Made by a program: the position numbers and the translations under genes. Of a stretch of 57,853 nucleotides of DNA, positions 42,376-55,720 are shown one piece after another. The notes beneath the pieces were generated by a model. The model was given only the letters and a program-made list of their open reading frames with translations. It was not told where the DNA came from and searched no databases. Origin of the DNA: Flavobacteriaceae bacterium (GTDB lineage: Bacteria > Bacteroidota > Bacteroidia > Flavobacteriales > Flavobacteriaceae); contig JABAYY010000064.1 in assembly GCA_018608765.1 (NCBI GenBank), forward strand, positions 1-57,853, written 5' to 3'. Position 1 is the first letter of the stretch, and each line of letters starts with the position of its first letter.

Positions 42376-43614
42376 CTAACGCAACATCATGGCCGCTTTT
42401 TTAACCCCTTCCACAAAAGTGTCTATCTCTTTTTTAGTATTGTAAAAACAAAATGAAGCTCTGGCAGTCCCAGAAACTTTAAAGAAATCCATGATGGGTT
42501 GGGCACAGTGTTGACCAGTTCGAATGGCTATCCCAAGTTTGTCAACGATAGTGCCAAGGTCGTAAGCATGAACCCCTTCAATATTAAAGGAAATAACCGA
42601 AGTTTTTTCTATTTTCGGACCATAGATTTGCATGCCTTCAATGGTGTTTAATTTCTCGGTAGCATACTCTAAAAGTTCGTTCTCATAAGCAGCAATAACC
42701 TCAAAACCGATTGAATTCATATAGTCAATTGCAGCTCCAAAAGCGATACCTCCACAAATGTTTGGAGTCCCTGCTTCAAACTTATGAGGCAGATCTGCAT
42801 AGGTTGTTTTTTCAAAGGTTACTTCAGCGATCATTTCGCCACCTCCCTGATATGGTGGTAATTTATGCAGCCATGATTCTTTTGCGTACAGCATTCCTAC
42901 ACCAGTAGGACCGCACATTTTGTGACCAGAGGTTACATAAAAATCGACATCTAAATCTTGAACATCTGGTTTGATATGTGGACATGCTTGTGCGCCGTCA
43001 ACCAACACTGCAGCTCCTACAGAATGTGCTTTTTGTATCATTTCCTTAATAGGATTAATCGTTCCTAAGGCATTGGAAATATGGTTTACAAAAACCAATT
43101 TTGGATTTAAAAGTAACAAGTCTTCATAAGCAGATATGTCCAAGGCGCCTTCCGAAGTCATTGGAATGACTTTTAAGGTCGCTTTGGTTTTTTCGCAAAG
43201 CATTTGCCAAGGTACTATATTGCTGTGGTGCTCGAGTGCTGAGACCAAAACAGTATCTTTTTCGTTTAAAAAACTTGCAAATCCATTGGCTACTAAATTA
43301 ATACTGTGTGTGGTGCCTGAAGTAAAAATAATTTCATGTAGCTGCGCCGCATTTACATGTTTTTGAATGGTTTGGCGAGCATTTTCGTATTTGTCTGTGG
43401 CTTCCTGACTTAGACTATGAACCCCTCTATGAATATTGGAATTATAATTAGAATAATAATCGACAATGACATCAATGACATATTGTGGAGTTTGTGATGT
43501 TGCCGCATTGTCAAGATATATTAATGGTTTCCCATTGACAGTTCTTGAGAGTATTGGAAAATCCTTTCGGATTTTTTCAACATCAAAAGGGGTATTTGAA
43601 TTTAGCTCCTTCAT
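42376..43614 (-). CDS. sufS: SufS-type cysteine desulfurase
   Basis: PLP enzyme that removes sulfur from cysteine as a persulfide for Fe-S assembly. 412 residues, with the PLP Lys at K232 in VTSGHKMCGPTG, the substrate/PLP motif DGAQACPH near 206-213, and the persulfide Cys at C370 in RTGQHCAQP, the short loop form typical of group II (SufS) enzymes. It starts one base before the sufD stop region ends (the two genes share one base at 43614), so translation is coupled. Confidence 0.96.
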   Translation of the reverse strand: MKELNSNTPFDVEKIRKDFPILSRTVNGKPLIYLDNAATSQTPQYVIDVIVDYYSNYNSNIHRGVHSLSQEATDKYENARQTIQKHVNAAQLHEIIFTSGTTHSINLVANGFASFLNEKDTVLVSALEHHSNIVPWQMLCEKTKATLKVIPMTSEGALDISAYEDLLLLNPKLVFVNHISNALGTINPIKEMIQKAHSVGAAVLVDGAQACPHIKPDVQDLDVDFYVTSGHKMCGPTGVGMLYAKESWLHKLPPYQGGGEMIAEVTFEKTTYADLPHKFEAGTPNICGGIAFGAAIDYMNSIGFEVIAAYENELLEYATEKLNTIEGMQIYGPKIEKTSVISFNIEGVHAYDLGTIVDKLGIAIRTGQHCAQPIMDFFKVSGTARASFCFYNTKKEIDTFVEGVKKAAMMLR

Positions 43615-44930
43615 TATAAATCAAATCCTATATTAACTCCCAACTTGTCGGCAATTAAGGCGTTTATTCTATTTTTAAGTTGTGGGATCTTTACACTTTC
43701 CAGAACGTTATTTGCAAAGGCATACATCAAAAGGGCCTTGGCTTCTTTTTCGGGAATTCCTCTTGCACGTAAATAAAACAGAGCATTTTCGTCCAATTGT
43801 CCAATGGTACAGCCGTGAGAGCACTTCACATCATCTGCAAAAATCTCTAATTGAGGTTTGGTGTTGATGCTTGCTTTGTCACTAATAAGTAGATTATTAT
43901 TAGCCTGAAATGCATTTGTTTTTTGAGCTTCTTTATTAACAAGTACTTTTCCATTAAAGACTCCTATAGAGCTATCGCCAAAAATACCTTTATAATCTTG
44001 ATGGCTTTCACAATTGGGTTCAATGTGATGTACCAAAGTATTGTGGTCAACATGTTGTTTGTTTCCAATAATAGTGACACCATTTAAAGTAGAATCAATA
44101 TATTCCCCGTTCTGATAAAAGTTCAAATTATTTCGGGTCAATTTGCCTCCAAAACTAAAGGTGTGGACCGATACATGGCTTTCCCTTTCTTGGTCTATAA
44201 AAGTGCTGTCGATAAGTGACGCATTTTCTTTGTCGTTTTGAACCTTATAATAGTCAACAATTCCGCGTTTGGCAGCAAATATTTCGGTGACACTGTTGGT
44301 CAAGCTTGGATTGTCTGTAAGGCTTTGATGGCGTTCTATAATCTGAACATGTGCATTCTCATCAACTACAATTAAATTTCTAGGTTGAAGTAAAAGTGCT
44401 ACTTCACTTCCTGTAGAAAAATGAATGATTTGAATTGGTTTTTCAACCAACTTATTTTTGGTGATATGAATATAAGCACCTTCATTTGAAAATGCAGTAT
44501 TCAAGGATGTTAAGCTATCTTTTTCAGCTATTTTGTTGAAATAATTCTCAATTACAACCTGGTACTTAGGTTTACTTAAGGCTGCTGACATTAAACAAAT
44601 ATCAATCCCTTCATGCGTGGTTTCCGAGAGGTGAGAGGCATATTTACCATCTACAAATACAATTTTGTAACTGTCAATATCATGTATAAAATAAGGTTGA
44701 ACATCTTTATATTCAACAGCGAATTCTTTTTTTGCAAACACACTAAAATCTTGTTTTAAGACTTTCTTTAGGGATGTATATTTCCAAGCCTCATCTTTCT
44801 TGGCAGGGAAGCCTTCAGTTTCAAAGCGTTTGATGGCTTCTGTGCGCATGTCGTGCACAAAAGTGTTGTCTAATGAAATCTGATTTTCAAAAGCAATAAA
44901 AGAGGATACTAATTTTTCTTTAAGTTCCAT
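43614..44930 (-). CDS. sufD: SufD scaffold subunit
   Basis: Partner of SufB and SufC in the SufBC2D Fe-S scaffold. 438 residues, with an N-terminal helical region (EAWKYTSLKKVLKQDF, 42-57) and the right-handed beta-helix core, plus the SufB/D signatures KCSHGCTIGQLDENALFYLRARGIP in the C-terminal half, including a Cys/His pair as in other SufD. It begins 17 bases after sufC. Confidence 0.96.
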   Translation of the reverse strand: MELKEKLVSSFIAFENQISLDNTFVHDMRTEAIKRFETEGFPAKKDEAWKYTSLKKVLKQDFSVFAKKEFAVEYKDVQPYFIHDIDSYKIVFVDGKYASHLSETTHEGIDICLMSAALSKPKYQVVIENYFNKIAEKDSLTSLNTAFSNEGAYIHITKNKLVEKPIQIIHFSTGSEVALLLQPRNLIVVDENAHVQIIERHQSLTDNPSLTNSVTEIFAAKRGIVDYYKVQNDKENASLIDSTFIDQERESHVSVHTFSFGGKLTRNNLNFYQNGEYIDSTLNGVTIIGNKQHVDHNTLVHHIEPNCESHQDYKGIFGDSSIGVFNGKVLVNKEAQKTNAFQANNNLLISDKASINTKPQLEIFADDVKCSHGCTIGQLDENALFYLRARGIPEKEAKALLMYAFANNVLESVKIPQLKNRINALIADKLGVNIGFDL

Positions 44931-44947
44931 AAAGGCAATGCGTTCTT

Positions 44948-45700
44948 TTAATTTTCAGCTTCTTGTTTGATCCAGTCGTATCCTTTTTCTTCCAACTCAA
45001 AGGCTAGTTCTTTGGTTCCAGACTTTACAATTTTTCCATTGTGAAGTACGTGTACAAAATCGGGTACGATATAATCTAAAAGACGTTGGTAATGCGTAAT
45101 AACAACTACGGCATTATCTTTGGTTTTTAATTTGTTGACTCCATTGGCTACAATGCGAAGAGCATCAATATCCAACCCTGAATCAGTTTCATCTAGGATC
45201 GCTAATTTTGGATCTAACATAGCCATTTGAAAAATCTCATTTCGTTTTTTCTCACCCCCAGAAAACCCTTGGTTTAAGGAACGGGATAAAAACTTTCGAT
45301 CAATTTCTAACAGTTCAGATTTTTCACGGATCATTTGAAGCATTTCTTTTGCCGGCATGTCTTCTAAACCTTTTGCTTTACGCATTTCGTTTAAAGATGT
45401 TTTCATGAAGTTAGTCACTGTCACACCAGGTATTTCAACAGGGTATTGAAAGGATAAAAAGACACCTTTGTGTGCGCGTTCTTCAACAGAAAGTTCGTCA
45501 ATATCTTGACCCTCAAAAGTGATTTCTCCTTTTTCAACTTCGTATTCTTCTTTTCCTGCAATGACAGAAGCCAAGGTACTTTTCCCTGAACCGTTAGGGC
45601 CCATAATAGCGTGAACTTCTCCTGGTTTTATTTCTAGATTGATGCCTTTAAGAATTGACTTACCGTCAATGTTTGCATGTAAATCGGTTATTTTTAACAT
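44948..45700 (-). CDS. sufC: SufC Fe-S assembly ATPase
   Basis: ABC-type ATPase of the SufBC2D scaffold. 250 residues: Walker A GPNGSGKST (34-42), Q-loop SFQYPVEIPGV, ABC signature GFSGGEKKRNEI, Walker B LAILDETDSGLD and the H-switch VITHYQRLL. Separated from the upstream lipoprotein gene by two bases and from sufD by 17. Confidence 0.97.
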   Translation of the reverse strand: MLKITDLHANIDGKSILKGINLEIKPGEVHAIMGPNGSGKSTLASVIAGKEEYEVEKGEITFEGQDIDELSVEERAHKGVFLSFQYPVEIPGVTVTNFMKTSLNEMRKAKGLEDMPAKEMLQMIREKSELLEIDRKFLSRSLNQGFSGGEKKRNEIFQMAMLDPKLAILDETDSGLDIDALRIVANGVNKLKTKDNAVVVITHYQRLLDYIVPDFVHVLHNGKIVKSGTKELAFELEEKGYDWIKQEAEN

Positions 45701-45702
45701 AG

Positions 45703-46077
45703 TTATTCTGTTCCTAGTTTTAATATATTCTCTGTTTCTTCAGCTGTAGAAATACTAATGATTTCAACAATTTCTAGTTTGTTTTCCCATAAAATTTTAG
45801 GATTCTCTTTTGTAGAGATAATTCCTCTTACTTCTACACTCACCATGTCAGTTTCGTTGGTTTTAAGTGGTGCTGCTTTTTTATTTAACTCTTTTGCTAG
45901 ATCATTTAAAATGACACCATAAATTTGGACGTCATTTTGTAAGACAGCGGCATCTTTAAAAAAGATGTAATTCCCTGTGATGATTTCTGTGTCATCAGTG
46001 GTTTCACTGCTATTTTTTGAATTGTTTTTACACCCTAAAATAGAGATTACAAAAACAAAAATTAATAATTTTTTCAT
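45703..46077 (-). CDS. Predicted lipoprotein inside the suf operon (124 aa)
   Basis: Signal peptide with lipobox ILGC (C16), then KNNSKNSSETTDD, a flexible acidic linker, and a compact domain of about 85 residues beginning TGNYIFFKDAAVLQ. No family recognised; the alternation of strands and a helix (YGVILNDLAKELNKKAAPL) suggests a small beta-alpha fold. It is wedged between sufB (11 bases) and sufC (2 bases), so it must be cotranscribed. Presence of an envelope lipoprotein between the two scaffold genes is unusual. Confidence 0.8.
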   Translation of the reverse strand: MKKLLIFVFVISILGCKNNSKNSSETTDDTEIITGNYIFFKDAAVLQNDVQIYGVILNDLAKELNKKAAPLKTNETDMVSVEVRGIISTKENPKILWENKLEIVEIISISTAEETENILKLGTE

Positions 46078-46088
46078 ACTAAAAGTTT

Positions 46089-47537
46089 TTATCCAACTGA
46101 GCCTTCAAGGCTTATTTCTAATAGTTTTTGAGCTTCCACAGCAAATTCCATCGGGAGTTTATTGAGTACTTCCTTGCTAAATCCATTCACAATTAATGCA
46201 ATTGCTTTTTCGGTTTCAATTCCTCGCTGATTGCAATAAAATATTTGATCTTCTCCAATTTTACTTGTGGTTGCTTCGTGCTCAATCTGAGCCGATTTAT
46301 TTTTAGCTTCAATATAAGGGAATGTATGTGCACCACATTCGTTACCCATCAGTAAACTATCACATTGAGAAAAGTTTCTCGCATTTTCTGCTCTTGACCC
46401 AATTTGAACCAATCCTCTGTAACTATTTTGTGATTTCCCTGCAGAAATCCCCTTGCTAATAATCGTTGATTTTGTGTTTTTCCCCAAATGAATCATTTTG
46501 GTGCCCGTATCTGCTTGCTGATAATTATTGGTCACAGCAATGGAATAAAATTCTCCAACAGAGTTGTCCCCTTTAAGGATGCACGAAGGGTATTTCCATG
46601 TGACAGCACTTCCAGTTTCAACTTGTGTCCAAGAAATTTTTGCGTCTTTTTCACAGATTCCCCGTTTGGTCACAAAATTGTAAACACCTCCAATACCTTC
46701 GGTATTTCCAGGGTACCAGTTTTGAACGGTTGAGTATTTGATTTCAGAAGCGTCCATCGCAATCAGTTCTACAACGGCGGCATGCAATTGATTTTCATCT
46801 CTACTTGGAGCGGTACAGCCCTCAAGATAACTTACATAACTTCCTTCATCTGCAATCAAAAGGGTGCGTTCAAATTGACCCGTTCCTCCTTGATTAATTC
46901 TAAAATATGTAGAGAGTTCCATTGGACATTTGACTCCTTTTGGAATGTAGCAAAAACTACCATCACTAAAAACAGCACTGTTTAAGGCAGCGTAATAATT
47001 GTCGGTTGTTGGAACTACGGTTCCAATATATTTTTTGACGAGTTCAGGGTGTTCTTTAATGGCTTCAGAAATACTCATAAAAATGATGCCCTTTTCGCCA
47101 AGTGTCTTCTTAAAGGTCGTCGCAACAGATACAGAATCAACAACAATATCCATAGCGATATTGTTCATTTTTTTCTGCTCATCGATTGATATCCCCAATT
47201 TTTTATACATCGCCAATAAGTCCGGATCCACATCATCCAAGGTTTTATTTGGATCTACTGATGCTGGTGCAGAGTAATAAGCAATCGCTTGAAAATCGGG
47301 TTTTTGATATTTTACATTAGCCCAGTCTGGCTCTTCCATAGCTTTCCAAACCTTAAAAGCTTCCAGACGCCATTGGGTCATCCATTCAGGTTCCTCTTTC
47401 TTTTTAGAAATGGCTCTCACAATGGATTCATCCAAACCAATAGGAAACGTTTCTGAATCTATATCTGTATAAAAACCATATTCGTATTCTTTGGTTTTTA
47501 ATTCTTCTCTTAAATCATCTTCGGTGTACTTACTCAT
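46089..47537 (-). CDS. sufB: SufB scaffold subunit
   Basis: Main scaffold for nascent Fe-S clusters. 482 residues with the SufB signatures [34 protein letters not shown], the core [66 protein letters not shown] with the conserved Cys residues. Second gene of the operon, 18 bases after sufA. Confidence 0.97.
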
Positions 47538-47555
47538 ACCACTAATAAAATTATA

Positions 47556-47885
47556 TTATAAAGAAAAAGATTCTCCACACCCACAAGTACGATTTGCATT
47601 GGGGTTATTAAACACAAATCCTGCACCGTTTAGGCCACCAGAATACTCTAAAGTTGTTCCAATGAGATATAAAAAACTCTTTGTATCAACCACGATTTTC
47701 ACACCGTTGTCTTCAAATAATTTGTCGCCTGCACTCTGAGATTTGTCAAATTTTAAGTCATAAGATAACCCTGAACACCCCCCACTTTTAACCCCAACTC
47801 GAACAAAGTCATTGGTAGGGTCAAATCCGTCATCTTGCATTAATTGCAAGACTTTACTTTTTGCTGTTTCAGATACTTTTATCAT
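47556..47885 (-). CDS. sufA: SufA/IscA-type Fe-S carrier
   Basis: HesB-like A-type carrier that takes clusters from the scaffold to target proteins. With start ATG 47885 the protein is 109 residues, starting MIKVSETAKSKVLQ, with the three ligand cysteines in GVKSGGCSGLSY and RTCGCGESFSL. An upstream in-frame ATG at 47960 would add 25 residues that are not conserved, so it is rejected. First gene of the suf operon. Confidence 0.94.
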   Translation of the reverse strand: MIKVSETAKSKVLQLMQDDGFDPTNDFVRVGVKSGGCSGLSYDLKFDKSQSAGDKLFEDNGVKIVVDTKSFLYLIGTTLEYSGGLNGAGFVFNNPNANRTCGCGESFSL

Positions 47886-47917: not shown

Positions 47918-47925
47918 CAAATATA
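47918..47925 (-). promoter_or_regulatory. Candidate -7 element (TATATTTG, minus strand) for the suf operon
   Basis: TATATTTG on the minus strand, exact TAnnTTTG, 32 bases before the sufA ATG at 47885. No clear -33 TTG. No Fe-S or iron operator recognised. Confidence 0.5.
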
Positions 47926-47990
47926 CAACATACAGAGGGGATTTCCATACATCCTAACATTATATTAGTAGATGCGTTTATAGGATTTGC

Positions 47991-49067
47991 CTATGGGTTA
48001 GAAAAGTTCGGATTATTTATAAAATCTAGGTCCGTTAGGCTTAAAAGAAATGCCTTTAGATCGGCTTTTTCTTGAAGGCTGAGTTGTACACCACCTTGGT
48101 CCACTTTTTTCATTAAGGGGTCAATGGTTGGAGAATTTTGTAAGCCTTCGCTGTAATGATTGATAACTTCTTCAATTGTTTCAAACCGTCCATCATGCAT
48201 ATAAGGTGCTGAGAAAGCAAGGTTTCTTAGGGATGGGGATCTAAATTTTCCGTTATCAGCCGGATCGCCAGTTACCTCCCCAAAACCAAGGTCTGAAAAA
48301 GTAGTGTCTAAGCCGTTATTGTGGAATTTGTTATCTGTCCAAAGTGGATTGTTGTCGCTCCCATGACAATGAAAACAATCGCCTTTTGATTCGTCCATAA
48401 AAACATTAAATCCATTTGTTTCTTCAGGTGTTAAGACAGCGTCACCTTGAAGGTATTTGTCAAATTTTGAATTCGCCGAAATGAGTGTTCTCTCAAACTG
48501 AGCGATGGCTTTAGATACCAAAACAGAGTCAATAGTGGCCGTGCCAAATGCTGCATTAAAAAGCTCAGGGTATTCAGAATGCTGCTGTAGTTTTTGTGTA
48601 ACCGCTTCCCATGTAGTGTGCATTTCGATGGGATTGGTGACAGGTTCAAATGCCTGATTTTCAAGTCCAGACTCGCGTCCATCCCAAAAGAATTTGTTGT
48701 CATAATTCCATGCTAAATTAAAAAGAGGCATTGAGTTTCGGTTCCCAAACAAGCCGTCGATTCCATCACTAAAGCGGGTATCATCAGTAAATGCGTTGGA
48801 TGTTTTATGACAACCTGCACATGCTTGAGTATTATCAGCAGATAAAATGGGATCAAAAAACAGTTTTCTTCCTAGAGTGATGCCTTCTTCTGTTTGGGGA
48901 TTATTTGAAGGAATGACAGGGTCTAAGATGAGGTCTTGGAACAATTGAGGAATTTCTAGCGGACGCGGCGTAGGTGTATTTACATAAGACTCCACGGAAT
49001 CGTTGTTGCAAGATGTAATACACAAAGCAAACATAACTATAAAAAAATAAGATGTTTTTGGTGTCAT
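47991..49067 (-). CDS. Diheme cytochrome c peroxidase / MbnH-like lipoprotein
   Basis: 358-residue lipoprotein (lipobox ITSC, C20) with two heme-binding motifs, C83-AGC-H87 and C231-FHC-H235. Other family landmarks: GRKLFFDPILSADN, FWDGRESGLENQAFEP, NPIEMH, and SAPYMHDGRFETIEEVINHY, the distal-heme region with M290. The superfamily (bacterial CcpA peroxidases, MauG, MbnH) reduces hydrogen peroxide or makes post-translational oxidations of Trp. Its direct neighbour is an MbnP-like protein, the known substrate type of MbnH, which favours the MbnH reading. It is last of a four-lipoprotein operon, five bases after the MbnP-like gene. Confidence 0.9.
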   Translation of the reverse strand: MTPKTSYFFIVMFALCITSCNNDSVESYVNTPTPRPLEIPQLFQDLILDPVIPSNNPQTEEGITLGRKLFFDPILSADNTQACAGCHKTSNAFTDDTRFSDGIDGLFGNRNSMPLFNLAWNYDNKFFWDGRESGLENQAFEPVTNPIEMHTTWEAVTQKLQQHSEYPELFNAAFGTATIDSVLVSKAIAQFERTLISANSKFDKYLQGDAVLTPEETNGFNVFMDESKGDCFHCHGSDNNPLWTDNKFHNNGLDTTFSDLGFGEVTGDPADNGKFRSPSLRNLAFSAPYMHDGRFETIEEVINHYSEGLQNSPTIDPLMKKVDQGGVQLSLQEKADLKAFLLSLTDLDFINNPNFSNP

Positions 49068-49072
49068 TTTTT

Positions 49073-49843
49073 CTAGTTTATCCCTTCCAAAGTAAATACG
49101 TTTTGTCCATTTTCATACATCAAAATTTGAGCTGCAGAATTTGGCATAAGCGTTTGATTATACACATTAAGATCCCATGAATTAGGGTTTTTGAACCATT
49201 CTTCAATATGCATCGCGATGCTAATTTCTACATCAGATTCAATCGTAATTACCCCCAAGTCCACTCTAAAAAAAGTGTCTTGTGGAAAGGTTGGATTTGC
49301 CCCAGCATTGTCAGCTGCTCGGATGGCATGGTAATTATAGCCTTGCGCATCATTATTACTATTTATGAATTTTCCATCTAATTGCATGTAGTGATACCCA
49401 CCTCCAAGCATAGAGGGCACATTCCACGATGCCGCATTCAAATCGTTGTAAGTGCCATCGGTATTTTTTTCATTTACCAACCCAAATATAAAAGAGACAT
49501 TACTGTAAGTGCCTTTTTCGATTTTTTCAATAGGTGTATAAGACAGGTTGGTTTGATTGGTAACATCCACTAAGTTGTAGCCTTCTATCAAAATGGTTTG
49601 CCCATCTGTTTTAGTAAATTCAACGTCTGAAATTAAATAGCGTAAGCGTTCAATGCTCAATAGTTCGCCATGATCATTTGTATAATTAAGAGAGTTAAAA
49701 TCAGAGTTCGACACGGGCACATCCTCCCAATAATGAGAAAATGCAATCGTTATATTTGCAGTTGCTACAACGTCATCTGAATCTGAACTACATCCAAATA
49801 TAAGCACTAAGCTAAATATTAATATTGTATATAATTGGTTCAT
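49073..49843 (-). CDS. MbnP-like copper-binding-family lipoprotein
   Basis: 256 residues, lipobox IFGC (C18) followed by SSDSDD, a surface-export-like acidic patch. Matches the MbnP family pattern: NITIAFSHYWE (31-40), LLSIERLRYLISDVEFTKTDG (61-81), SFIFGLV, ASWNVPSMLGGGYHYMQLDG (138-157) and IAMHIEEWFKNP (209-220). In methanotroph MbnP and its relatives a Trp is oxidised to kynurenine by the paired diheme enzyme and takes part in copper binding; W140 in the GGGYHYM segment is the natural candidate here, and H37, H151 and H212 are possible ligands. This last part is inference. Overlaps the propeller gene by four bases. Confidence 0.85.
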   Translation of the reverse strand: MNQLYTILIFSLVLIFGCSSDSDDVVATANITIAFSHYWEDVPVSNSDFNSLNYTNDHGELLSIERLRYLISDVEFTKTDGQTILIEGYNLVDVTNQTNLSYTPIEKIEKGTYSNVSFIFGLVNEKNTDGTYNDLNAASWNVPSMLGGGYHYMQLDGKFINSNNDAQGYNYHAIRAADNAGANPTFPQDTFFRVDLGVITIESDVEISIAMHIEEWFKNPNSWDLNVYNQTLMPNSAAQILMYENGQNVFTLEGIN

Positions 49844-51183
49844 TTTAATTTAAGTATTAATAGGTCAGTAAACCCTTTGTTTTCAGAAATATCTTCATTG
49901 GAGCTATTGGAGTCTCCAACCACCACAATTGTTTGGTCGTTGAGTTCTACTACATCATAAAAAAAATCGACTTCACTGCCGCCTATGGCTTTTTGCCATT
50001 CTAAGTTGCCATTGCTATTAATTTTTACGACCCATGCATCATTCTGTCCTTTATTAGAAGTAAGGTTTCCATTGGTACTTCGTGAACTTCCAGATATTAA
50101 AAACCCGTTGTCTTGTGTTTTTGAAATAGACCTTCCAACATCAAAACTACTACCACCCAAGGTTTTTTCCCAAAGCAAAGTGCCATCGGGAGTTATTTTC
50201 ATGACCCATAAATCTGCGGCGCCATTGTTTTGAGAGATGTCCAAATCACTACTTCTAGTATCTCCTACAATTAGATAGTTTCCATCTGCTGTTTTACTTA
50301 TGGCATGCGCTTCATCAATTTCGCTGCCGCCAAAGGATTTTTCCCAAACCAAAGTGCCAGTATCAGAGATTTTAATAACCCAAAAATCGTAACTTCCACG
50401 AGGATTTGAGATATCTACATCATCACTATCTGAAGAGCCAATAATTATATAACCATCATCTTCGGTTTGAATGGCATCGTAGGCTGTGTCTGTAAAACTT
50501 CCACCATAATAGTTGCTCCATTGTTTGACACCATTTGCATTTAATTTAATCACCCAATAATCGCCCCCTGCGTGCCGGCTTCCAATTGAATTTCGATCGC
50601 CTTGACCATTAGAAGCTGAGACATCCAAAACACCTGACAACAAGTATCCGTTGTCATTGGTTTGAATGATTGAATACGGCGTGTCGCTTCCTGCAAATCC
50701 AAAAGTATATTCCCAAGAAATTGAGCCACTGCTGTCTAGTTTAGAAACCCAAAAATCATCAAAGCCTGCATTTTCAGAAACATCAAGGTCATTACTTTTG
50801 CTTTTTCCAATCACAGCATAACCACCATCGGAAGTTTGAATTAAATCAGTTCCTCTATCGTCATCACTCCCACCATAGGTTTTTTGCCATTGTAGTTGAT
50901 TGGTTGTGTCAAATTTTAGCACCCAATAGTCATAAGATTCGTTTGACTTATTAGTGACATCTCCGTCCATACTTTGGGCGTGTCCTAAAACGGCATATCC
51001 GCCGTCTGTTGTGTTTACCACGGCTTGTGCACTTTCATTTTTTGAACCTCCTAAGGTGGTTATAAAATCGACTACAATGTCTGGTGCTTGTGGGGTAGAG
51101 TTGTTATTGTCTTCCGAACAACCCATCAAAGAGAGTGTTATAAAACACACACTGTAAAGAAGGTATAAAGATACTTTATGCAT
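49840..51183 (-). CDS. Seven-repeat beta-propeller lipoprotein
   Basis: 447 residues, lipobox LMGC (C22) followed by SEDNNN. The mature part consists of about seven repeats of 55-60 residues with the pattern 'xxWxKxxGGSxxDxxxxIxxTxDGGYxIxGxxxSxxxDxSxNxGxxDxWVxKL', for example LQWQKTYGGSDDDRG and LLWEKTLGGSSFDVG. This is a beta-propeller with a conserved D-x-W-V-x-K closing strand. No enzymatic residues are evident; it probably binds a partner or ligand at the cell surface. It is the second gene in the four-lipoprotein unit (six bases after the first). Confidence 0.85.
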   Translation of the reverse strand: MHKVSLYLLYSVCFITLSLMGCSEDNNNSTPQAPDIVVDFITTLGGSKNESAQAVVNTTDGGYAVLGHAQSMDGDVTNKSNESYDYWVLKFDTTNQLQWQKTYGGSDDDRGTDLIQTSDGGYAVIGKSKSNDLDVSENAGFDDFWVSKLDSSGSISWEYTFGFAGSDTPYSIIQTNDNGYLLSGVLDVSASNGQGDRNSIGSRHAGGDYWVIKLNANGVKQWSNYYGGSFTDTAYDAIQTEDDGYIIIGSSDSDDVDISNPRGSYDFWVIKISDTGTLVWEKSFGGSEIDEAHAISKTADGNYLIVGDTRSSDLDISQNNGAADLWVMKITPDGTLLWEKTLGGSSFDVGRSISKTQDNGFLISGSSRSTNGNLTSNKGQNDAWVVKINSNGNLEWQKAIGGSEVDFFYDVVELNDQTIVVVGDSNSSNEDISENKGFTDLLILKLK

Positions 51184-51189
51184 AAAAGA

Positions 51190-52647
51190 TTATTCGCTTT
51201 TTCGAATGATAAACAATCCACGATCAATATCACTAATGACAATATTTCTACTCGTAAAAAAAGGATAAACATTCCATACACCATCAAATGCTGCACTATC
51301 ATTGTCGGGGTAGGTGTCAAAATAGCCGATTTCAGTTAAAGAGTTATTTCCAATTTGAGATAAATCAAGGACACGCACTCCAGCACGATAATTGGCCAAA
51401 AAGTAATCATTTCCATAGGGGTAGCCGTTATGGTCTATGGCAGCGGTAGGCCCTAAATACTCAAAGCTATAAACAGGGTTATCTAAATCCGATAAGTCAA
51501 ATACTAAAGTTCTGGTATTGTTACCAAAATCTCTTTCATCTAGCTCGTCTCCTACAATAAAATAGTTAAAGTCTTCTGTAAACCACCCTTGGTGGGTGTA
51601 GCTAACATTAGAGTAGGTGACAGTCGATAAAATTGTAGGATTCGCTTTGTCTGAAACATCCGCAATTACAATTTCATTTTCGTTACTGCCTACTAATATT
51701 TCTTTTCCAGTATGATCGCTGTCGGGCCCTGTATAGGTAATCACCTGTACATCGTGAGAATAGCCTCCAGCAGCAAAGCCACCCTCTGAAACAGGTGAGG
51801 TTGGATTTTGGATATTTATAAACCAGGCACCCCCCGAAAAAGGACCGTTACGATTAGTACCCACCACGTAGGCATATCCAGAAGTTTCGTTAATAAAAAT
51901 ATTATGAGCTCTCCCAAACTCAGTAAAATGTGTATCTGCATTAAACGTTTCAGGAGGGCTGGCAACAGATCGTAAGCGAGTCAAGTCAAAAACTTGCATG
52001 CCATGGCCATTGGCTTCACTCACTATAAAAGCATGATTTTGATAAACCTTTATATCTCTCCATGAACTATTAACGGTGGCTGTAGGGAGAATTCCTACAA
52101 GAATAGGCGCCACAGGATTGCTTATATCTACAAAAGCTGCATGAGAATTGAGCCCAACAAGTGCATATTCCTTATTAGTTGTTGGGTCCGTCCAGCCCCA
52201 TGAATCATTTCCAGAGAGACTGCCTGCGCCATTACCAGGAGTCAAATCATCTAAAGACAAATAACCCACAAGATCATAGCCATTACAAGGGTATATGTCT
52301 GCCATTCCATTCTCGCAAGGCGCTAATGGGTCACAAGCATCGCCAATACCATCACCATCGGAATCTTCTTGATTTGGATTTGCCTTCTCAGGACAGTTGT
52401 CTTGGGAGTCAATTATGGAGTCGCCATCTGTATCTGTGTTTTCTGTTAAATCACAAGCATTTCCAATACCATCACCATCGGAATCTTCTTGATTTGGGTT
52501 GGCAATTTCAGGGCAATTATCAATACTATTAATAATTCCATCCCCATCAGAATCTGTGGACACAGCTCCCGTAGGTTCATTGTTACAAGAGAATATAGTT
52601 CCAATGACAATAAAAACACACAACAGATGTGAAAAAATAGCTTTCAT
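51190..52647 (-). CDS. Choice-of-anchor B lipoprotein with thrombospondin type 3 repeats
   Basis: First gene of the four-lipoprotein unit. From ATG 52647 the protein is 485 residues: lipobox IFSC, then TSP3 calcium-binding repeats (about 28-110; [55 protein letters not shown]), then a large LVIVD/propeller domain (choice-of-anchor B) starting near YDLVGYLSL, with phrases [13 protein letters not shown] and [13 protein letters not shown] start at 52671 would precede the signal peptide by eight extra residues and is less likely. The TSP3 repeats should bind calcium and act as a stiff spacer. Function otherwise unknown. Confidence 0.85.
52331..52500 (-). repeat. Two near-identical TSP3 units, 120-base period
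   Basis: 52331-52380 and 52451-52500 are the same 50 bases apart from a few positions (shared core CCAATACCATCACCATCGG). They encode the two DSDGDGIG-x-ACD repeats and are exactly 120 bases (40 codons) apart. Confidence 0.85.
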
Positions 52648-52674
52648 AGTATAGAATTTAGGTATATTCATGGA

Positions 52675-52687
52675 ACGTAATTTACGT
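52675..52687. promoter_or_regulatory. 13-bp palindrome upstream of the four-lipoprotein operon
   Basis: ACGTAA-T-TTACGT, perfect 6-bp arms with one central base, located 27 bases upstream of the first start codon (52647) of the MbnP/MbnH-type operon and 84 bases upstream of the divergent thiL ATG. A good candidate operator, regulator unknown. Confidence 0.5.
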
Positions 52688-52771: not shown

Positions 52772-53830
52772 ATGATAGAAGATAAAAACCAAGAAAACAC
52801 ACCCTTAAGCAGTTTAGGAGAATTTGGATTAATTGATCATTTAACCAAGCAATTTACGGATAAGAATAATTCCACGATTAAAGGAATTGGAGATGATGCC
52901 GCGATATTAGATTTTAAAAATAAATCGGTGGTGCTCACTACAGATTTATTAGTTGAAGGGGTTCATTTTGATTTAAGTTATATGCCCCTAAAACATTTGG
53001 GATATAAAGCTGTGATGGTTAATCTTTCAGATGTGTATGCTATGAATGCAAATGCCACACAAATCACTGTTTCTATTGCAGTTTCCAATCGTTTTCCATT
53101 AGAAGCTCTTGAGGCCTTATATGAAGGGATTTATAAAGCCGCTGAGGTTTATGGCGTTGATGTGGTTGGAGGTGACACAACTTCTTCTACAACAGGTTTA
53201 ATGATTTCTGTAACCGCTCTTGGAGAGGTTGATTTAGATACGGTTGTTAAGCGAAGTGGTGCGCAACCAAACGATTTGTTGGTAGTGAGTGGAGATCTTG
53301 GTGGGGCCTATTTAGGGCTTCAGGTCCTGGAACGTGAAAAAGAAGTTTTTAAAGTAAATCCCAACAGTCAACCAGATTTGGATGATTACACTTATATCAT
53401 TGAACGTCAACTAAAGCCTGAAGCGCGAAAGGACATTGTAAAACTTTTAAAAGATTTGGAAGTAGTGCCAACGTCAATGATAGATATTAGTGATGGCTTA
53501 TCTTCTGAAATCATTCATTTATGCAAACAAAGCGATGTTGGTTGTGATTTGTATGAAGATAAAATCCCTTTAGACCCTCAAGTGATTTCAACTTGTGAAG
53601 AGTTTAATATGGACAGCACAACTGTCGCTCTGAATGGGGGAGAGGATTATGAACTTCTCATGACTATTTCTCAAGAACATTTCCCTAAAATTAAAGCCAA
53701 TCCAAATTTAACGGTTATTGGTTATATGACGGATCCGAGTGTGGGGATGAATTTAGTGACACGTGCAGAGACTAAAATTCAATTAACAGCTCAAGGGTGG
53801 AATTCTTTAGGTTCGGATTCAGAGGATTAG
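52772..53830 (+). CDS. thiL: Thiamine-monophosphate kinase
   Basis: Phosphorylates thiamine monophosphate to the active diphosphate. 352 residues with the ThiL/PurM-fold signatures: GEFGLIDHLTK at the start, GIGDDAAILDF (nucleotide and Mg-binding), TTDLLVEGVHFDLSY, VGGDTTSSTTGLMISVTALGEV, and IDISDGLSSEIIHL with NGGEDYELLMTI. Divergent from the four-lipoprotein operon and convergent with gldD (seven bases between the stops). Confidence 0.95.
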   Translation: MIEDKNQENTPLSSLGEFGLIDHLTKQFTDKNNSTIKGIGDDAAILDFKNKSVVLTTDLLVEGVHFDLSYMPLKHLGYKAVMVNLSDVYAMNANATQITVSIAVSNRFPLEALEALYEGIYKAAEVYGVDVVGGDTTSSTTGLMISVTALGEVDLDTVVKRSGAQPNDLLVVSGDLGGAYLGLQVLEREKEVFKVNPNSQPDLDDYTYIIERQLKPEARKDIVKLLKDLEVVPTSMIDISDGLSSEIIHLCKQSDVGCDLYEDKIPLDPQVISTCEEFNMDSTTVALNGGEDYELLMTISQEHFPKIKANPNLTVIGYMTDPSVGMNLVTRAETKIQLTAQGWNSLGSDSED

Positions 53831-53837
53831 TGATAGG

Positions 53838-54398
53838 TTATTTCCAGCGTAAACTTTCAATAAAATGCAGCAAATCTTTTTGAATGTAATTGATGGCTGG
53901 TAAGATAGAATCGTAATTGGGTTTGGTTTCAAAATAAAGTGCCCCCGATATAAAATGTTGTGTACTGTCGGTTACATAAAATTGGGATTGTGATGCTACA
54001 TTTCCTTTGAGGTCATAAAACATACCGTACAAATTCTGTTGTGTATTTTCATACATCCGTTCAGAAATCTCATCTGCTACTTGAAGGTGTTTTTTAGTCA
54101 TTGACCGCGTGTCTGAAATGTACTTTTCGAGGTTGTTATCTATTTTTTTATAATTGATAAAAACAGATGCTTTTAGGGTAGGATAGCGAAGTACAATTCC
54201 TTCTAGCGTGTTGTTTTTTTTAGAAACATTCAGCCGCGCTAATTTATTTTTCTCAAACTCAAAAGGGATGTCTAATTGACTTTTTAAATAGGTTGCTTTT
54301 GGATAATCCAGACTCAAAAAAGCCTTTGGTTTTGGCACATGGATTTCGTCACAAGAAAAACACATAAAAACACATAAAATAAAAGCGTAAGGTTTCAT
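53838..54398 (-). CDS. gldD: Gliding motility lipoprotein GldD
   Basis: 186 residues with lipobox CFSC (C16) and the GldD start IHVPKPKAFLSLDYPKATY, then NYKKIDNNLEKYISDTRSMTKKHLQVADEI. GldD is an envelope lipoprotein required for gliding in Flavobacterium johnsoniae (established). Its gene is in the conserved mutY-ssb-gldE-gldD order and shares one base with gldE. Confidence 0.93.
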   Translation of the reverse strand: MKPYAFILCVFMCFSCDEIHVPKPKAFLSLDYPKATYLKSQLDIPFEFEKNKLARLNVSKKNNTLEGIVLRYPTLKASVFINYKKIDNNLEKYISDTRSMTKKHLQVADEISERMYENTQQNLYGMFYDLKGNVASQSQFYVTDSTQHFISGALYFETKPNYDSILPAINYIQKDLLHFIESLRWK

Positions 54399-55720
54399 TA
54401 TTTTTTTAGAGTTACTTTGAGTTGTTTGATGCGTTTATTATTGAGCGCTTCAATAGTAAACAGATACGTTTTAAACGCAATTATACTGTTCACTTTTGGG
54501 AAGCTTTTGGAAATTTCAAGAACAAATCCTGCAAGGGTTTCTGCTTCTCCTTTCTCATCTTCAAAAACAGATTCATCTTCCAATTTGATGATTCTATAAA
54601 AATCTTTTAGCGTTGTTTTACCCTCAAAAACATAGTTATGAGCATCGAGCTTTGAGTAAATCAAATCGTCGTCGTCAAACTCATCACTAATGTCCCCCAC
54701 AATTTCTTCGATGATATCTTCAAGAGACACCACTCCAGATGTTCCGCCATACTCATCAACTACAATGGCTAAATGGATTTTTTTCTCCTGGAATTCCACC
54801 ATCAAATCATCTAGTTTTTTATTTTCAGGAACAAAAAACGGTTCTCTTAGTAGTGTAGTCCAATCAAATTGTTTTTTCTGAAGGTGTGGTAACAAGTCTT
54901 TGACGTATAAAATCCCAACAACGGTATCAATACTTTCGTTATACACAGGAATACGTGAGTATCCATGTTTTACGATTTCAGGAATAATTTTTTTGTAATC
55001 AACCGATTGATCCAAAGCAAATATATCTATCCGTGGACGCATTACTTGTTTTGTGTCTGTATTTCCAAACGATACAATTCCTTGTAATATTTTTTGTTCT
55101 TGTTGGGTTGTGTCATCCTCACTAGCAAGCTCTAATGCTTGCGATAGATAATCGACATTAAGATTGGATTTTTGTTTTCCTAATTTTTTATGAATCCCTA
55201 AAGTTACTTTTTGCATGGGAAGACTAATGGGCGAAATGACAACATCTAAAACCTTTAAAGGATAGGCCATGAACTTTGAAAATTTCAAATTATTTCTGTT
55301 GGCATAGACTTTTGGTAAAATTTCTCCAATCAGCAAAATCAAAAATGTAATTAAGATCACTTCAATAAAAAACACGAGGTCAATTTTGAAAAACCCTAGA
55401 TCTAGTTCTGAATGTACTCCGCTAAATAAGGTTTCGCTTAAAGAAGCAAATAATATGACGATTGCAATGTTGATAAAATTGTTGGCGACCAATATAGATG
55501 CCAATAATTTTTTTGGTTGTTTTAAAAGGTCAATAATAATCTCAAACGATTTTGACTTGCTTTCTTTTGCCTCATCTAAATCTTTTTGTGTCAGTGAAAA
55601 AAGAGCGACTTCAGCTCCCGATATAAGTGCTGAACATATTAAAAGAACAAGCAATCCCACGACGCCAGTGATAAAAGTACTGTCAAAAAGGGGAGTAAGG
55701 CTAGAGGGTTCAGGATCCAA
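54398..55720 (-). CDS. gldE: Gliding motility-associated protein GldE (CNNM/CorC-like)
   Basis: 440 residues. N-terminal CNNM/DUF21 transmembrane domain with about four segments (about 13-200, SALISGAEVALFSLTQKDL), two CBS domains (about 215-345, VMRPRIDIFALDQSV and IPVYNESIDTVVGILYVKDL), then a CorC_HlyC C-terminal domain (DEYGGTSGVVSLEDIIEEIVGDISDE). Related proteins are Mg/Co transporters; GldE is a gliding accessory protein that can partly support GldD-deficient cells (as I recall). Upstream of gldD in one operon. Confidence 0.93.
   Translation of the reverse strand: MDPEPSSLTPLFDSTFITGVVGLLVLLICSALISGAEVALFSLTQKDLDEAKESKSKSFEIIIDLLKQPKKLLASILVANNFINIAIVILFASLSETLFSGVHSELDLGFFKIDLVFFIEVILITFLILLIGEILPKVYANRNNLKFSKFMAYPLKVLDVVISPISLPMQKVTLGIHKKLGKQKSNLNVDYLSQALELASEDDTTQQEQKILQGIVSFGNTDTKQVMRPRIDIFALDQSVDYKKIIPEIVKHGYSRIPVYNESIDTVVGILYVKDLLPHLQKKQFDWTTLLREPFFVPENKKLDDLMVEFQEKKIHLAIVVDEYGGTSGVVSLEDIIEEIVGDISDEFDDDDLIYSKLDAHNYVFEGKTTLKDFYRIIKLEDESVFEDEKGEAETLAGFVLEISKSFPKVNSIIAFKTYLFTIEALNNKRIKQLKVTLKK

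Follow-up and report, generated by a model that had tools for sequence, protein, structure and literature searches.

Pairs formed by the protein MbnP and the diheme enzyme MbnH are widespread and have been studied mainly in methanotrophs, and the first Trp of a Trp-x-Trp (WxW) motif in the MbnP of M. trichosporium is reportedly converted to kynurenine (Kyn), as Manesis et al. are said to have described in 2021. MbnP/MbnH pairs are also known outside methanobactin producers, and PMC3621798 treats them in a section headed 'mysterious partners'. The stretch of Flavobacteriaceae DNA analyzed here (contig JABAYY010000064.1 of assembly GCA_018608765.1; 57,853 nucleotides, hereafter the window) carries a form of this pair in which the two genes follow two genes for propeller proteins. 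The assembly comprises 2.07 Mb and is 87% complete, and its close named relatives are Flavobacteriaceae metagenome-assembled genomes, part of them labelled Formosa; the marine flavobacteria that host the pair are cultured and are not known to be methanotrophs. The four genes and their products are called A, B, P, and H below, and L and G numbers denote loci and genomes. We lean, with reserve, towards the reading that A-B-P-H forms a single module for redox maturation in Flavobacteriaceae, located outside the cytoplasm and probably exposed at the surface, in which H would oxidize P.

The four-gene block and its conservation

Four co-directional open reading frames (ORFs) on the minus strand make up the block, namely A (51190-52671), B (49840-51183), P (49073-49843), and H (47991-49067). 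A gap of 6 bases separates A from B, B and P overlap by 4, and 5 bases lie between P and H, an arrangement of overlapping or nearly adjoining genes that agrees with the initial annotation. A second ATG at 52647 is a possible alternative start of A. A lipobox had also been claimed for each gene, and a signal-like segment ending in Cys can be recognized by eye in all four (A, IFSC; B, LMGC; P, IFGC; H, ITSC), although the lipoboxes of A and P are loose, with Phe at position -2. The description of A as a TSP3 and choice-of-anchor B protein was corroborated by a match to TIGR04312 (539 bits; cut-off 100) and by three TSP_3 stretches; its C-terminal propeller is probably seven-bladed, and the AlphaFold2 model (predicted local distance difference test score, pLDDT, 87.7) has propeller structural neighbors at Z about 30. 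B had been called a seven-repeat propeller, and seven blade-like repeats can be counted by eye, but all profile hits are of SBBP type and below cut-off (e.g., 53.6 of 400 bits for the LipL53-type SBBP lipoprotein model NF047494), and it is listed here as an SBBP-like propeller lipoprotein from its ORF, this hit, and its position after A.

The two profile searches that the initial annotation had proposed placed P in the Pfam MbnP family (PF20243, 91.5 bits; cut-off 27) and H in the CCP_MauG superfamily (PF03150, 198.5 bits; two CXXCH motifs). The AlphaFold2 model of P (pLDDT 90) best matches the MbnP structure 7l6g (Z 16.4, root-mean-square deviation 3.5, 214 residues aligned), and with the runner-up at Z 7.0, 7l6g is the sole good match listed; the fold matches listed for P do not include MopE or CorA, which is no evidence against a shared fold. 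The closest solved structure to H by sequence is 6e1c (E 1e-51), an entry named 'Di-heme enzyme' that we take to be M. trichosporium MbnH.

The gene order claimed for the window is conserved in Flavobacteriaceae. PF20243 is present in 84 of 149 relatives, including 17/17 same-genus genomes. Sixty MbnP stretches were fetched (all family matches among the relatives and some from the rest of the order), and A, B, P, and H were located in them by tblastn. All four genes occur in the same order in 38 of these 60 (17/17 same-genus stretches and 21 from other Flavobacteriaceae), while the remaining 22 are without A and B and include 21 with an MbnH match. In a set of named genomes that overlaps the first (the best 80 of 454 places encoding a relative), the complete order is found in 79 of the 80 loci, the 80th ending at a contig edge; the titles are those of Flavobacteriaceae genera or Bacteroidetes bins, with one Rhodobacteraceae. 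Since the MbnP/MbnH pair and the propellers are conserved as a unit, neither of the outcomes named beforehand as damaging to the initial annotation (i.e., the pair not found together with the propeller genes in related genomes, or no match of P to the MbnP family) came about.

Judged from its sequence, P belongs to a discrete MbnP subtype. A profile built from 39 four-gene MbnPs splits a 300-genome sample of the family, which includes the genome of the window, into 91 genomes at 278 bits or more and a remainder whose best genome reaches 85.2; among 395 genomes of the order, all 12 matches above 250 bits belong to the same family and the best outside it reaches 145 bits. When strong A matches are defined by E below 1e-100 (six weak matches dropped; relatedness uncorrected), the 300 family rows divide into 90 with both the MbnP subtype and A, 1 with this MbnP alone, 69 with A alone, and 140 with neither. 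Subtype loci fetched outside the genus have A-B-P-H in 36 of 37 cases. The exception, L186, holds a lone subtype MbnP (L186:7485-8264) between thiL and suf, with Tyr in place of H151. Contig ends aside, no other subtype locus seen lacks A, B, and H. Two MbnH-like genes lie elsewhere in the L186 genome, and the lone MbnP is a possible relic.

Alternatively, vertical descent alone might have kept the four genes side by side as syntenic neighbors that share no function. In line with this, the subtype turned up in just one family, and A-B is present without P-H in 10 of the 11 genomes fetched for having A but not this MbnP; sufA lies downstream of A-B with no P-H between them in 9 of those 10, and in L203-L205 thiL and suf adjoin directly with neither pair. 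A-B is thus separable, with P-H an addition to it. Against synteny without joint function stand the overlapping or nearly overlapping genes, the joint absence of A, B, and H beside the lone P of L186, and a second MbnP/MbnH lineage, of another MbnH clade, in the same place after A-B. The loci of this second lineage were chosen by eye from coordinates as having a classical-type MbnP near A and form a selected set that gives no frequency estimate. A WxW-type MbnP followed by MbnH comes after A-B in seven of them (L202, L206-L210, and L214), and five of the seven (L202, L206, L207, L208, and L210) lie between thiL and suf; two ORFs separate P from H in L210, and H is matched weakly in L202 (186 bits) and in L214 (192 bits). 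Other classical pairs have no adjoining A-B (L211, L212, L213, and L215). In an MbnH tree made by a quick method, for which 70 of 82 rows passed the cut-offs, a single branch (Shimodaira-Hasegawa-like approximate likelihood ratio test support, SH-aLRT, 99) sets the 40 subtype rows apart, beside L088 and L091 (92), and five A-B-linked classical rows fall in a separate clade with L213 (95). L088 and L091, from another family of the order, have an intermediate MbnP (GGYH type) and an MbnH without A-B. Because the A-B pair occurs with two distant lineages, a functional link of the propellers with MbnP/MbnH can be argued, and we regard shared descent without joint function as very unlikely.

Candidate residues and the proposed oxidation

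The heme enzyme has the features expected of the MauG/MbnH-like class. Both CXXCH motifs (residues 83-87 and 231-235), W128, E148, and Y305 are kept in all 112 distinct MbnHs (those over 400 bits, which lets in L091 and leaves out the classical ones), so that, as far as sequence goes, H carries the axial Tyr, inter-heme Trp, and distal Glu of that class. Read by eye, Y305 aligns with Met in the peroxidases 3o5c and 2c1u. In the peroxidases that Met serves as axial ligand, and a Tyr in its place marks the MauG/MbnH class. The spacing W128-Q138-P142-E148 equals that of W93-Q103-P107-E113 in MauG, for which PMC6405878 gives the numbering and Tyr-His heme ligation, and Q138 and P142 are found in 90% or more of 60 rows. 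Residue 304, the His beside Y305, is Phe in 4/114 rows, all of which have Phe at MbnP position 140. These features bear on a simpler account, in which H would simply be a cytochrome c peroxidase that detoxifies peroxide, placed by suf for oxidative-stress defense, with P, A, and B as accessories. The CCP_MauG fold, close sequence relatives among bacterial peroxidases, and the fixed place upstream of suf would fit it; however, Y305 stands in 112/112 where the peroxidases have Met, the W-Q-P-E spacing is that of MauG, H has P as its partner in all complete four-gene loci seen, and suf has a promoter-like element of its own. We consider this account unlikely.

In P, several residues are candidates for a modified or metal-binding site. 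Among 114 distinct MbnPs of the four-gene subtype, W223 and H172 are present in all 114, H151 in 113 (the sole exception being L186), and W39 and W216 in 110 each, and the positions of H151, W223, W216, and W39 lack these residues in the 20 classical MbnP rows used for comparison. In a mixed alignment (34 rows), W140 coincides with the first WxW Trp, which is kept in 19 of the 20 classical rows. The window has W140-N-V142 in place of a complete WxW, and position 142 is Val in 105/114 and Trp in 9/114 subtype MbnPs, so that the Kyn-x-His arrangement of MopE and CorA is also absent. In the proposed module, H may reach a high-valent state with peroxide (or oxygen) and would then oxidize an aromatic residue of P, its partner. 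This oxidation could mature a small metal site with H172 and H151 as the likely side chains, and the metal may be copper by analogy with the methanotroph proteins; the propellers A and B might tether P and H to the surface or else present the ligand or target of the pair.

A number of observations weigh against the proposed module or parts of it. H scores 265.4 bits against TIGR04039 (MbnH-family di-heme enzyme), below the cut-off of 362.85, and is therefore not filed as an equivalog of that model, and the model of the four-Cys 'metallo-mystery' MbnP subfamily, TIGR04052 (accession as given in PMC3621798), gave no match to P at E 0.1 in NCBIfam, a release in which the presence of the model was unchecked. 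Position 140 of P is Trp in 82/114 subtype MbnPs and Phe in the other 32, and MbnH is retained with all 32 that have Phe140. W39 is itself replaced by Phe in 4/114. Among the 11 flanking proteins of the window that were scanned, no name refers to copper. Co-transcription of A-B-P-H with suf is unsupported because of the promoter-like element of suf, and, since gene order is partly inherited within one family, the locus counts given above are not independent events.

The Phe140 rows bear most directly on the initial annotation, which had proposed a surface copper or redox module with W140 of P modified by H; in the copper version, H would turn W140 into kynurenine to give a Cu(I) site. P is an MbnP by profile and fold, W140 lies on the first WxW Trp, reportedly the kynurenine site of M. 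trichosporium MbnP, and this much favors the proposal. So does the binding of Cu through Kyn and two His in CorA and MopE, as stated in PMC3912023. However, the Phe at position 140 in loci that keep MbnH arose through several changes (by parsimony, 4 on the MbnP tree and 3 on the joint tree, both quick trees), the second WxW Trp is Val in most rows, and the scanned neighbors suggest no tie to copper; W140 as the residue modified throughout the subtype was thus not upheld, and we hold the copper version to be doubtful. The taxa with Phe140 include Winogradskyella, Bizionia, Lacinutrix, Psychroserpens, Jejuia, two Seonamhaeicola, Hyunsoonleella ulvae, and others, and the total number of Trp per protein in these rows is three in 28/32 and four in 4/32. 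Among individual species, Algibacter luteus (L110) has W140, and Winogradskyella echinorum (L127) and W. thalassocola (L151) have Phe140. Only where a lineage has W140 could this residue serve as the target, and W223 or W39 can be alternatives. It is conceivable, if still less than probable, that H has switched its target from the WxW Trp to W223, W39, or a residue of A or B, producing a new surface center tied to Fe-S metabolism rather than to copper uptake. If true, the changed target of H would make a new protein-derived metal or redox center on the flavobacterial surface. Since Trp and Phe vary naturally at the expected site, the question of which residue MbnH modifies can be put directly to the test. 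Covariation of P position 140 with H was also considered, with M149L in 18/32 Phe rows versus 2/82 Trp rows and H304F in 4/32 versus 0/82, and no conclusion was drawn from it because there are only three independent contrasts on the tree.

Probable surface anchoring and the thiL-suf setting

Surface exposure, which had been suggested from acidic residues right after the lipid-anchored Cys, gains independent support from A. The lipobox pattern matched 25/39 best A proteins, and most of the others have, by eye, a Cys after the signal segment. Nine A proteins without a lipobox, picked for their tails, all have the type IX secretion domain (PF18962, over cut-off), and only the tailed form of A was found in L054, L056, L061, L065, and L068. 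Tailed A proteins, replacing or standing besides a lipid-anchored copy, occur in L054, L056, L057, L060, L061, L065, L068, and L069. Since the lipid anchor swaps with a type IX secretion tail, a surface site is supported. The acidic residues themselves were seen as described, with at least two D/E at positions +2 to +7 after the Cys in 108/114 subtype MbnPs, a count set against no background lipoprotein rate; the acidic stretch of MbnP resembles the surface signal SDDFE of F. johnsoniae given in PMC5080379.

A number of further features of A were noted. H223, H256, H306, H360, and H414 are invariant across 36 rows, and the choice-of-anchor B gene occurs in tandem, in two to five copies, ahead of B, P, and H in L199, L200, L196, and L195. 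The top Foldseek match of A is the phosphotriesterase propeller 5hrm, which presumably has a binuclear metal site; as functional evidence for a metal enzyme this match was rejected because all 50 entries listed are level at Z 29-31 and the sequences show no relationship. No function for the choice-of-anchor B (TIGR04312) family came up in the literature and database searches.

The block lies between thiL (52772-53830, plus strand; TIGR01379, 317.5 bits, cut-off 184), its divergent upstream neighbor, and the suf operon (42376-47885, minus strand), which comprises a sufA-type gene, sufB, a small lipoprotein gene, sufC, sufD, and sufS, with NCBIfam hits over cut-off (TIGR00049, TIGR01980, TIGR01978, TIGR01981, and TIGR01979). 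This placement recurs among the 80 best named loci, where the downstream side has a sufA-like gene in 77 and sufB in 78 and the upstream side has a thiL-like gene in 74, with some stretches truncated by contig ends. sufA follows A-B-P-H in 21 non-genus loci and in 15 further complete loci picked as divergent or odd (with one reversed ORF between them in L191 and L192), and divergent thiL is present in 21/21 and 13/15 of these, respectively, L189 and L197 ending near A.

Between H and suf lies a promoter-like element, TATATTTG (47918-47925, minus strand), 40 bases upstream of the start codon of sufA (47883-47885). The promoter consensus used was TAnnTTTG with TTG further upstream. TAnnTTTG occurs within 200 bases of sufA in 73/74 loci (12% in shuffles) and 20-80 bases ahead of it in 69/74 (4% in shuffles), and the TTG 17-23 bases further upstream in only 5/74, being absent in the window. 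The recurrence of TAnnTTTG before sufA suggests that suf may have its own promoter. Upstream of this element, a block resembling TAATATAATGTTAGG (47953-47967) recurs, as judged by eye, both in loci that have the four genes and in loci that lack them (e.g., L203 and L204) and may be a suf regulatory site. Before A, the inverted repeat ACGTAA-A-TTACGT (52675-52687) was found by eye in some same-genus loci and in no other genera, and was not used.

Other neighbors include the gliding motility genes gldD (PF25593) and gldE (TIGR03520) at 53838-55720 beyond thiL, and the small lipoprotein gene between sufB and sufC (45703-46077), which is common in the family and gives a weak NlpE_C-like hit below cut-off; its matches in G233, G244, G338, and G351 contain stops. 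This lipoprotein was considered as a partner of P-H, being present in 21/21 non-genus P-H loci and in 1/11 loci having A without this MbnP. The link was rejected because the gene is present in L203-L205, which have no A, B, P, or H, and was unseen between sufB and sufC in the P-H loci L187-L189 and L191-L194.

Comparison with known systems

No description of a propeller-linked MbnP/MbnH form was found in the literature searched, a search outside which most subscription papers lay; the 'MbnP' of PMC10269597 is a dinoflagellate nuclear protein and an unrelated use of the name. New here are the thiL-suf placement, the A-B pair without P-H, the second lineage after A-B, and the anchor swap of A. 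A resembles other choice-of-anchor B proteins by its TIGR04312 score and differs from them in being tied to B and MbnP/MbnH.

With MauG and pre-methylamine dehydrogenase, the locus shares the W, Q, P, and E spacing and the Tyr at the axial position (as judged against PMC6405878), but no methylamine dehydrogenase gene is among the flanking window proteins scanned. The MopE/SACCP and CorA/CorB systems of methanotrophs likewise combine a partner protein with a diheme enzyme, and a surface location is reported for CorA, MopE, and SACCP in PMC3912023; the Kyn/two-His spacing of CorA and MopE is, by sequence, not kept in P (W140-x-V142). MbnP is without marked sequence similarity to MopE or CorA according to PMC3621798.

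Among the closest described systems is the methanobactin MbnP/MbnH pair (GenProp0940; 7l6g and 6e1c), with which the locus shares the MbnP fold, the adjacent MauG-like diheme enzyme, a Tyr aligned with that of 6e1c, and, in the window protein, the first WxW Trp at W140. It differs from that pair in having two propeller partners, four lipid-anchor signals, and a single Cys in P, namely the lipid Cys, instead of the four-Cys motif, in the loss of the second WxW Trp, in the extra invariant W223 and near-invariant H151, and in adjoining suf rather than methanobactin genes. The marine flavobacteria hold a conserved version of MbnP/MbnH whose partners are fixed, as is its location next to suf.

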